A stretch of 40,402 bases of DNA from Gammaproteobacteria bacterium (GTDB lineage: Bacteria; Pseudomonadota; Gammaproteobacteria; Steroidobacterales; Steroidobacteraceae), in assembly GCA_028293805.1 (NCBI GenBank), contig JAQGOC010000179.1:1-40402 (forward strand), written 5' to 3'. The notes beneath the pieces were generated by a model. The model searched no databases. It saw nothing but the letters and a program-made list of their open reading frames with translations, and had not been told where the DNA came from. A program made the translations under genes and the position numbers. Positions 2,404 through 4,546 of this stretch are shown here, piece after piece (the first letter of the stretch is position 1; every line of letters begins with the position of its first letter).

Positions 2404-2997
2404 TGCCCGAACTTTTCGATCTCGCTCGCGCTCACGATTCGTCACACTTGCTCCGCGATCGATTCGATAGCGTTTGTCCTCCCTTCGCCACTCCTCGATC
2501 CCGCGCGCGCAGCAACCTGCTCGACCTCTTCATCTCTGTTCGATCCCCGCACAACGAGCGATGCGATGTCGCCCACCCTTTGCGACTCTTTGATCCGCGC
2601 GCCGCGAAAGAAACACCGCGACAAAGCGGTCGCATATCACCTCTCCCCAGAACTCCACGCCATCAGCTCCCCATCACAAAGCCGCGAATTGGAAGGTGCC
2701 GCATCGCTATGACTCCAAGCGGCAATAACAAAGCGCTTGCGATGTGGACACACGATGAAGACGTTCGCACCACGTCGAGAGACCGCACGCAACGCCAGTG
2801 ATGACGAAGAAGCCGGCCACTATCCGCACCACACGCGGTGCGGGCGTTCAATGTCTGGCGACTCCACACTCCGCTCCAGCCTGAAAGAGACTCGCCCCTC
2901 TCCAACGGAATAATGGCGCGCCCTCCTCCAACGTCGGAAAGCGCGCAGCACCGAGAAGTCGTGAGGCGGCGAGCGATATCGATCAGGCGCGTCGAAA
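2404..2997. other. gene-poor stretch with no recognisable product
   Basis: About 600 bases between the rpiA hairpin and the tRNA-linked repeats. Short open frames exist on both strands but none resembles a known protein. The best-looking start is minus-strand ATG at 2635, with a purine-rich GGGGAGAGGTGAT before it. It gives a 67-residue Arg/Ser-rich frame that looks like a chance translation. The texture (many CGATCG-, TCGCGA- and GATCGC-like words, less GC-rich patches) differs from the flanking genes. It could be a decayed gene or an RNA locus. Confidence 0.4.
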
Positions 2998-3000
2998 ACA

Positions 3001-3028
3001 AAAAGGCCCGCGGTAACGCGAGCCTTTT
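3001..3028 (-). terminator. intrinsic terminator, minus strand
   Basis: Read on the minus strand, a 12-bp stem with one G-U pair (arms at plus 3017-3028 and 3001-3012, loop GTAA) is followed by seven T residues (plus 2998-3004), then G and TTTT. It would stop any transcript reading out of tRNA-Gln through the repeats. The plus-strand arm also ends in TTTT, so it may work both ways. Confidence 0.65.
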
Positions 3029-3143
3029 AATGCCGATGCTGATCTCGTCGGATGTGGCAGGGTTTTCCCCCAGTCGTTCCCCGATGCCAGCCGCCGCTTG
3101 CCAGAAGGCAAAACGCTCAAAACAGGCGTGGCGGCGCGAGCGT

Positions 3144-3300
3144 TTGATGCCGATCCAATCTCGTCCTCGTCCGGAGTGGGGGGACTAGGATTGCTCGGCG
3201 CGAGCGCCTCGGCCCTTCGGGCCCGTGGGTTTCGCAATGCGAAACCGACGTCATCCCAAGCCCCGCGCCAAAATGCAAAAGGGCCGGCTAGGCGCGAGCC
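3144..3300. repeat. tRNA-linked structured repeat, unit 1 (diverged)
   Basis: This unit shares its order of parts with unit 2 at 3303-3437, offset by 153-159 bases: GATGCCGATCCAATCTC, then GGGGGGACTAGGATTGCTCGGCGC, three small hairpins, then CGCCAAAATGCAAAAGG. Its outer stem (3180-3191 with 3253-3264) pairs at only 9 of 12 positions, so this copy has decayed. The inner hairpins are kept. GGGGGACTAGGATT equals the 3' acceptor and T-arm sequence of the neighbouring tRNA-Gln. Confidence 0.7.
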
Positions 3301-3302
3301 TC

Positions 3303-3437
3303 TTGATGCTGATCCAATCTCTTCCGGAATGGGGGGACTAGGATTGCTCGGCGCGGGGCGCCTCGGCCCTTCGGGCCCGTGGGTTTCGCAATGCGAAACC
3401 GACGTCATCCTAGTCCCCTCGCCAAAATGCAAAAGGC
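3303..3437. repeat. tRNA-linked structured repeat, unit 2 (cloverleaf-forming)
   Basis: The outer 12-bp stem GGGGACTAGGAT (3333-3344) / ATCCTAGTCCCC (3407-3418) closes three hairpins: GGCGC/GCGCC (3350-3362), GGCCC/GGGCC (3365-3377) and GGTTTCG/CGAAACC (3382-3400). That is a four-way, cloverleaf-like fold of about 86 bases. It is not a tRNA: it lacks a normal anticodon arm and T-loop. A third, more eroded unit can be traced to 2998-3140. Confidence 0.7.
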
Positions 3438-3454
3438 CCGCCATTTGGCGGGCC
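3431..3454 (-). terminator. terminator of tRNA-Gln
   Basis: On the minus strand GGCCCGCC-AAAT-GGCGGGCC (plus 3435-3454) is followed by TTTT (plus 3431-3434), starting 11 bases after the encoded CCA end. The hairpin lies inside a larger inverted repeat that reaches into the tRNA itself (3407-3482). Confidence 0.75.
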
Positions 3455-3464
3455 CTGTGCATTT

Positions 3465-3538
3465 TGGCTGGGGGACTAGGATTCGAACCTAGGTAAACGG
3501 AGTCAGAGTCCGTTGTCCTACCACTAGACGATCCCCCA
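3465..3538 (-). tRNA. tRNA-Gln(CTG)
   Basis: The minus strand folds as a full cloverleaf. The acceptor stem TGGGGGA/TCCCCCA has the U1-A72 pair and G73 discriminator typical of glutamine tRNAs. The anticodon stem ACGGA/TCCGT holds the seven-base loop CTCTGAC, so the anticodon is CTG, reading CAG. The T arm is CTAGG-TTCGAAT-CCTAG. The CCA end is encoded (plus 3465-3467). The gene is followed on its strand by a terminator and by repeats that copy its 3' end. It lies just downstream of rpsI on the same strand, so it may be co-transcribed with rplM-rpsI. Confidence 0.95.
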
Positions 3539-3610
3539 AAAGTGGCGGGGTGCGGCTCGCACGACCGACCGGATCCGGGGATTCTCCCCAGATCCAGCCC
3601 GTCTGCAAAC

Positions 3611-4018
3611 TTACCGCTTCGAGTACTGCGGACCGCGGCGAGCCTTGCGGCGTCCGACCTTCTTACGCTCGACCTCGCGCGCATCACGCGTCACGAAGCC
3701 CGCGTCACGCAGCGTCTTGCGCAGCGTCTCGTCGTACTCCATGAGCGCACGGGTAATCCCGTGACGAATGGCGCCGGCCTGTCCGGTGATTCCACCGCCG
3801 TCGACTCGCACGGTGATGTCGAACTTGCCCGTGAGCTGCACAGCCTCGAGCGGCTGGCGCACGATCATGCGACCGGTCTCGCGACCGAAGAACTCATCGA
3901 GCGAGCGCTCGTTGACTGTGATTTTGCCGGTGCCCGGCTTCATGTACACGCGCGCCGTCGCTGTCTTGCGGCGGCCGGTGCCATATTGACGGTCGGCCTG
4001 AGAGGATGAGGCTGGCAT
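3611..4018 (-). CDS. rpsI: 30S ribosomal protein S9
   Basis: S9 (uS9) sits in the head of the small subunit, and its basic C-terminal tail reaches the P-site tRNA. The [12 protein letters not shown] start of the fold, the [18 protein letters not shown] core and the terminal [11 protein letters not shown] tail are all present. The 135 residues match the usual length allowing for a short N-terminal extension ([11 protein letters not shown]). It follows rplM after 13 bases, the universal rplM-rpsI order. tRNA-Gln follows on the same strand. Confidence 0.97.
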
Positions 4019-4031
4019 TGGGATACGGTCC

Positions 4032-4463
4032 TTACTGAATCGCGAGCGGCTTCGGCTGCTGCGCCTGGTGGGGATGCTCGCCGCCGGCGAACACGTGGAG
4101 CTTCCTGAACATTTTCCGGCCGAGAGTGTTCTTCGGCAACATGCCCTTCACGGCGATCTCGATCACGCGCTCGGGGTGCTCCTTCAGGAGCTTCTCCAGC
4201 GCAATCGACTTGATGCCGCCGATGTAGCCGGTGTGATGGTAGTAGATCTTGTCGGAGAGCTTGCGTCCGGTGACGCGAATCTTCTCCGCATTCAGCACGA
4301 CGATGTGGTCGCCCATGTCGACGTGGGGGCTGTAAGCGGCCTTGTGCTTGCCTTTGAGGACATGGGCAAGCTGCGTGGCGAGCCGGCCGAGCGTCTTCTC
4401 GTTGGCGTCCACGACAAACCAGTCGCCACGGACGTTCTCGGCATTGGGAAATACGGTCTTCAT
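4032..4463 (-). CDS. rplM: 50S ribosomal protein L13
   Basis: L13 (uL13) is an early assembly protein of the large subunit. The sequence aligns with the E. coli protein throughout, including [19 protein letters not shown], the [12 protein letters not shown] stretch and [20 protein letters not shown] start it at ATG 4463 (MKTVFPN), the family start; a GTG four codons upstream is in frame. It is the first gene of rplM-rpsI. E. coli L13 is known to repress this operon by binding its own leader. Here the leader is about 115 bases and holds a GC-rich hairpin (4547-4571). Confidence 0.97.
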
Positions 4464-4546
4464 AGGTAACTGCACTTCACTGTCATGAGGCCGAACGCGC
4501 CCGGCCGCTTCTTGGAAGAGGCCCTTAATCCCGTCCGGCCGATAGG

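Follow-up and report, generated by a model that had tools for sequence, protein, structure and literature searches.

The closest described counterparts of the locus considered here are the tRNA-linked repeats (TLRs) of Escherichia coli, whose record goes back to 1978 and the tyrT repeat (Egan and Landy, 1978; Rudd, 1999; both as cited in PMC8144298). According to the accessible portion of PMC8144298, TLRs are defined in E. coli by a stretch of 18–19 bp that repeats the 3′ end of the tRNA or rRNA lying upstream, and their function is not known. RrA, RrB and RrF lie between the rrn terminators T1 and T2; RrB is produced through read-through of T1, RNase E is proposed for it, and its homologues are reported for Enterobacteriales alone (PMC8144298, same portion). 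That text also counts the rrnB T1-T2 segment among the most used terminators of cloning plasmids. At tyrT and tyrV, the repeat is known as RttR or rtT RNA (RtT, Rfam RF00391), to which excerpts of two further papers attribute a tandem GA motif (PMC7657543) and, in a list, a change in tandem-repeat length (PMC2658671). In strain MG1655, the tyrT repeat begins with an inverted arm, which is followed by a hairpin core and then by the last 19 nt of the tRNA once more; the annotated end of RttR is the A of the CCA in this tail. The tyrT repeats match RF00391 at 132.9–137.5 bits, the gathering cut-off of the family being 45 bits.

The window, i.e., the whole stretch of DNA that was analysed, comprises 40,402 nucleotides of contig JAQGOC010000179.1 from a gammaproteobacterium of the Steroidobacteraceae. 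Its minus strand carries a tRNA-Gln gene with anticodon CTG and an encoded CCA (3465–3538, ARAGORN; Rfam tRNA 65.5 bits over 3468–3538), followed by an intrinsic-terminator-like hairpin (T1, 3433–3456, minus strand, terminator search). The ORFs just upstream of the gene (3611–4018 and 4032–4475, minus strand) we take, from their translation only, to be rpsI and rplM. The outer stem of T1 extends into the GCCA of tRNA-Gln and the first bases of an inverted arm, and the tRNA 3′ end, T1 and this arm form a palindrome (3407–3482). The preliminary description had reported an inverted repeat with arms of about 34 bases, the right one being the tRNA 3′ end. Both points hold, the arms being slightly longer (3407–3443 and 3446–3482, 37 nt, 89% complementary, 2 nt apart) and the right one comprising the 3′ part of tRNA-Gln(CUG) and the outer stem of T1. 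The minus strand from 3540 to 3405 folds with −78.5 kcal/mol (z −8.0), and none of 200 shuffles is as good. The view of an isolated inverted duplication, on the other hand, has to be given up: the left part of the palindrome belongs to a tRNA-linked repeat, of which it is the 5′ arm and which has a tail of its own. With the tRNA tail on one side of T1 and the first repeat unit's arm on the other, the palindrome is the visible edge of a larger array, beyond which lies a second terminator-like hairpin (3001–3028, minus strand, terminator search). A 234-aa ORF (2983–3687, minus strand) spans the tRNA and both repeat units and contains recurring SNPSPP strings; in all likelihood it is spurious and results from translating the repeats. 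A plasmid search with a 701-base flank returned 40 records and, among the 20 matches listed, the tRNA part alone aligned.

The array consists of two tandem units downstream of tRNA-Gln(CUG) and T1, with a period of 153–154 nt. Each unit opens with an arm that is an inverted version of the tRNA 3′ end, continues with a hairpin core and closes with that end again, now in direct orientation and from A58 of the T-loop onwards. In unit 1, the arm (3407–3418), which provides the 5′ strand of the closing helix, precedes a core that ends in GAGC (3346–3406) and direct copy 1 (3332–3345), all on the minus strand. In unit 2, a substituted arm (3253–3264) precedes its core (3193–3252) and direct copy 2 (3179–3192), again on the minus strand; both arms were located by repeat search and RtT alignment. 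Over 14 nt, both copies read AATCCTAGTCCCCC on the minus strand, exactly as the tRNA 3′ end does from A58 on; neither they nor the second arm appeared in the preliminary description. Both tails are identical to the tRNA over 14 of the 19 nt from A58, the discriminator and CCA being lost. Because CCA is lost, the two units are read as probably decaying.

As the TLR definition has it, both units lie downstream of a tRNA and on the same strand. Both align over all 130 model positions of RF00391 (model 1–130), unit 1 at 3327–3429 (minus strand, 32.6 bits, E 2e-4) and unit 2 at 3174–3275 (minus strand, 20.2 bits, E 0.23), but with these scores, below the gathering 45, they are not RtT members by Rfam's own rule. 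In the RtT alignment, the closing helix between arm and tail contains no non-standard pair in unit 1 and one marked pair in unit 2. The window shares with the tyrT/tyrV repeats of E. coli the inverted arm, the tRNA 3′-end copy from A58, the tandem arrangement behind a tRNA, and a core with CCCGAAGGG and a GCGC-type hairpin. The differences concern the host, which is tRNA-Tyr in E. coli, the CCA, which is kept there, and the window units themselves, which are shorter, lack CCA and remain under the cut-off. With RrB, the window shares the tail rule of TLRs and the downstream site; the RrB core has GGA, a motif missing from both cores of the window. To the known kind of the TLR, the window adds a new, worn member far from E. 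coli.

The preliminary description had also proposed that the trailer of a read-through transcript competes for the tRNA 3′ end, and part of this stands. In stability, the 76-nt hairpin exceeds the cloverleaf, so that interference is possible in read-through RNA only; on the other side, the tail of unit 1, 62 nt beyond the arm, offers an alternative partner identical to the tRNA 3′ end. In a secondary-structure model that leaves aside modifications, tertiary contacts and kinetics, keeping the cloverleaf costs 36.5 kcal/mol for the tRNA, terminator and arm; the cost drops to 28.3 kcal/mol with the unit tail included, and the cloverleaf-kept fold then forms the arm-tail helix of Rfam RtT. As modelled, competition with the tRNA-Gln cloverleaf is a possibility of read-through RNA only, with no sign of selection. 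A regulatory role, in which the arm of a read-through RNA binds the 3′ end of the tRNA and thereby reduces maturation of tRNA-Gln, would draw on the great stability of the hairpin, but it requires read-through of T1, and the unit's own tail competes for the arm. Moreover, the family stands behind many tRNAs, each with its own closing helix, and 22 of 27 sister tRNA-Gln loci have no tail copy (≤4 changes, next 500 nt). Such a role is very unlikely.

Within its own genome, the array has no better match elsewhere than one with an E of 0.16, and among 35 tRNA genes only tRNA-Gln(CUG) is followed within 500 nt by a copy of its tail (≤4 changes), five of the 35 having less than 140 nt of downstream sequence and two of these five none. 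The sequence downstream of tRNA-Gln was examined in 27 relatives of the same genus and two of the same order. Besides the 22 loci without a tail copy, four of the 27 same-genus loci carry the complete 19-nt tail (L030, L034, L037 and L041) and a fifth carries it with 4 changes (L022); L040 has a near-complete inverted arm only. With 5 of 27 loci bearing a unit, presence is patchy within the genus. The preliminary description would have taken the feature for a neutral duplication if relatives had the same tRNA without the inverted copy and no read-through RNA; the sequence half of this is borne out by the comparison, in which five of the 27 tRNA-Gln loci have a tail copy, four of them exact. 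An exact search for TGAGAACCNNNGGTTCGACAA found it in 5 of 60 relatives, exact matching being too strict. In two same-genus genomes, units also occur behind tRNA-Ser and tRNA-Arg, each ending in the tail of its own tRNA (G002), and behind tRNA-Gln(TTG), again with its own tail (G010). Of nine related loci scanned, four match RtT at E≤1 (L132, 41.0 bits; L030, 37.1; L034, 30.0; L041, 29.8), and L037, L115, L153, L117 and L118 do not. In the unit at L037:1576–1859 (G027), additional sequence stands behind the CCCG of hairpin three and may be a nested insertion.

These units bear on the idea of a local snap-back or tandem duplication without any mobile core, in which the likeness to RtT would be a convergence of GC-rich hairpins. 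The arm and the tail are indeed copied from the neighbouring tRNA, and the RtT score is sub-threshold. However, the RtT alignment is full-length, complete units are found at the same place in sister genomes, and the CCCGAAGGG hairpin with the GAGC-AATCC junction is common to sister species and, in changed form, to E. coli. Purely local duplication is therefore very unlikely.

Across the class, RF00391 matches 86 of 342 genomes (E≤0.1), with 22 above the cut-off; among 14 control genomes, E. coli alone matches. Ninety loci, drawn from the better-scoring matches listed, were examined. A tRNA is called in 83 of them, and a copy of the host tail (≤4 changes in 19) is present in 69. The hosts of these 69 are tRNA-Ser (31), Gln (25), Tyr (6), Arg (4), Glu (2) and Val (1), a spectrum that is biased because the RtT consensus includes the tRNA-Tyr tail. 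The tail is identical to the host over positions 59–76 in 59 of the 69 loci and, in comparison with 34 tails, that of the own host is strictly best in 65, tied in two and not best in two. The copy begins at A58 or A59 in all but one locus (68/69), and no more than 0–1 nt 5′ of A59 agrees with the host there. The match to the host is at 0.96–1.0 identity over 59–76, falls to 0.83 directly behind CCA and to about 0.5 forty nucleotides later; 5′ of the core, where the T-arm motif (52–58) matches by construction, having been used to find the core start, identity beyond this motif is 0.65, 0.48 and then 0.21. Pairing of the arm reaches 10.1 of 14 positions with the own tail and 8.8 with tails taken from hosts of a different amino acid, the own tail being the better partner in 56 of 69 loci. 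The 21 loci without a tail copy, inspected by eye (L188 and a few others in part), comprise contig ends, tails that carry more changes or deletions, tails that are lost, and interrupted tRNAs. The pattern GATTCGAACCNNNGGTTCGA, whose spacing was badly chosen, had no match in 370 class genomes. In the parts of the literature covered, older papers lying outside them, neither the core as an insertion element, nor class-wide host-specific tails, nor an origin of TLRs was found described.

The cores could be cut out of 66 of the 69 tail-bearing loci. They measure 59–97 nt (67–82 nt in 60 of 66) and exactly four hairpins are predicted in 49; the cores of the window have three predicted hairpins instead of the four of a typical class core, and that of unit 1 is shorter. 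Since hairpins differ in length between cores, an alignment of 51 cores (MAFFT/RNAalifold) yielded no more than 6 pairs, and pairing was therefore tested by swapping arms: with both arms from the same core, the first hairpin keeps all of its outer 7 pairs in 33 of 66 cases, and 2.2% of the swapped combinations do so. G-U accounts for 53 of 1561 predicted core pairs, and 113 of 142 triloops (240 loops in all) are C(GNA)G. C(GNA)G triloops are a property of ssDNA hairpins. Their frequency in the predicted folds suggests hairpins of this kind, although the case is not rested on them. Similarity between cores is higher within a genome, at different tRNAs (0.743, 13 pairs), than between genomes at the same tRNA (0.670, 259 pairs), an excess reached by one of 2000 label shuffles. 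A core-only model built from the 51 cores (R1) matches 114 of 342 class genomes (E≤0.001). It has no match in the window (E≤0.1) and none in the genome that the window comes from (E≤0.001, 14 candidates scored), and across 16 sources it also misses L037, L153 and L118.

GGA in a hairpin loop is the kind of loop that CsrA binds. Among the 49 four-hairpin cores, GGA occurs in both end-hairpin loops of 20, in neither of 25 and in one of 4 (Fisher 3e-9, kinship ignored). The window species might make an active read-through sRNA that binds CsrA and Hfq, as RrB, itself a TLR, does according to the accessible portion of PMC8144298, and the 20 class cores with paired GGA loops speak for this. However, GGA is absent from both cores of the window and CCA from both tails, which makes an RrB-type sRNA highly improbable here.

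Several loci contain cores inside tRNA copies. At L261, three tandem copies of tRNA-Gln(TTG) are broken between A58 and A59 and precede an intact gene; they are complete up to A58 but miss the last few nt. At L202, a tRNA-Ser copy holds one core in the D-loop and one in the T-loop and has a truncated tail, ahead of an intact tRNA-Ser. Inspection by eye places further cores in the 3′ halves of tRNA-Ser or tRNA-Lys (L249, L255 and L260), and others lie in an anticodon loop (L344), in a D-loop (L438) and between 5S-like flanks (L511). This distribution matters for the proposal of attachment-site scars, in which integrase elements came and went repeatedly at the 3′ end of the tRNA and the att-like tails are what they left. 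Such scars would agree with a tRNA 3′ end that is copied directly and in tandem and has its boundary in the T-loop, but a structured core, common to tRNAs and genomes, lies between the copies, and cores also occupy D- and anticodon loops; scars of this kind are highly improbable.

In E. coli, the core query has 1–9 matches in 3562 of 5426 genomes (E≤1), and in all five regions examined the core directly follows a 5S gene; the sequence we take to be the rrnB T1-T2 spacer. This identity rests partly on the accessible portion of PMC8144298. An rrnB-type core also occurs on the small plasmid pAK51 (L524:1501–1568), upstream of a beta-lactamase gene, where it is probably an rrnB T1-T2 segment.

In genomes G164, G276, G356 and G322, the core rides in dispersed repeats, several of them palindromic. 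Of the 42 matches of the G164 repeat, 30 were examined: 5 contain the core and 25 do not, with junctions that read, for example, CCTGA|core|AATCGAAT when filled and CCTGA|AATCGAAT when empty. Of 41 matches of the G276 repeat, 30 examined copies divide into 18 filled and 12 without a full core (one, L378, with a truncated core), and one base differs beside the junction of the empty site. Filled copies share sequence, and few insertions may lie behind them; the filled and empty sites could also reflect precise loss of the core. Among 73 full-length cores, distinct by sequence and with amplified repeats included, GA precedes the core in 66 and A follows it in 58. Four loci (L464, L520, L455 and L513) show GA|core|A junctions with no tRNA call nearby and similar flanks in locus pairs; these cores possibly lie inside protein genes. 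In two core-only query sets, cores within 250 nt of a tRNA are in sense orientation in 28 and 24 cases and antisense in 1 and 0, a core being scored as sense if any tRNA in range is on its strand and the sole antisense case being a 17-bit match; 7 and 80 loci, respectively, have no tRNA within 250 nt. This bias towards the sense strand, despite the palindromic T-loop target TTCGAA, would point to a single-stranded target (RNA or an ssDNA hairpin).

Small hairpins, insertion without target duplication and strand preference are features of the ssDNA elements of the IS200/IS605 type and of REP/RAYT elements. The core has all three in common with them, the clearest insertion case being without target duplication. 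Y1_Tnp and the core occur together more often than expected, with Y1_Tnp present in 88 of 114 core genomes and in 122 of 228 others (Fisher 2e-5, genome size and kinship ignored). In contrast to these elements, 26 of the 114 core genomes have no Y1_Tnp match (E≤1e-6), nor does the genome of the window.

With the anatomy of the units, their tandem period, a sub-threshold but full-length RtT match, complete sister units and host-specific tails across the class all observed, and with the dispersal of cores and their filled and empty sites observed as well, positions 3429–3174 (minus strand) are likely a tandem pair of degenerate TLRs of the RtT type behind tRNA-Gln that originated as a core inserted in a tRNA T-loop. 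Against this reading stand the RtT scores of the window, which are below the cut-off, and the failure of R1 to match the window cores, in which three hairpins are predicted rather than four. In this mechanism, a small non-coding core, putatively mobile, would enter a duplicated 3′ part of a tRNA at the T-loop, after GA (A58^A59), while the intact upstream tRNA would keep the cell alive. With the core inserted after A58, everything 3′ of it would be the last 18–19 nt of the tRNA. Tandem duplication would then make arrays. Transcribed only through read-through of T1, a unit could fold as a domain closed by arm and tail, a mimic of the acceptor/T stem and, where CCA is kept, its end could be matured like that of a tRNA or 5S RNA. 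Conservation of the tail up to CCA and the end of RttR at the A of CCA suggest, at the level of sequence, such tRNA-like 3′ maturation where CCA is kept. The rise of the inverted arm is not accounted for by simple insertion.

On balance, we lean slightly towards a broader proposal: TLRs would be the sites where one of the smallest mobile DNAs known has come to rest, namely a non-coding core with four hairpins and a length of about 70–80 nt that inserts precisely after GA. Its targets would be tRNA, 5S-like and palindromic sequences, and its orientation would almost always be that of the sense strand of the tRNA. If true, settling in the T-loop of duplicated tRNA ends would directly yield the 18–19 bp rule by which TLRs are recognized, and the window would represent the worn end of the TLR process at a tRNA-Gln, distant from E. 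coli.
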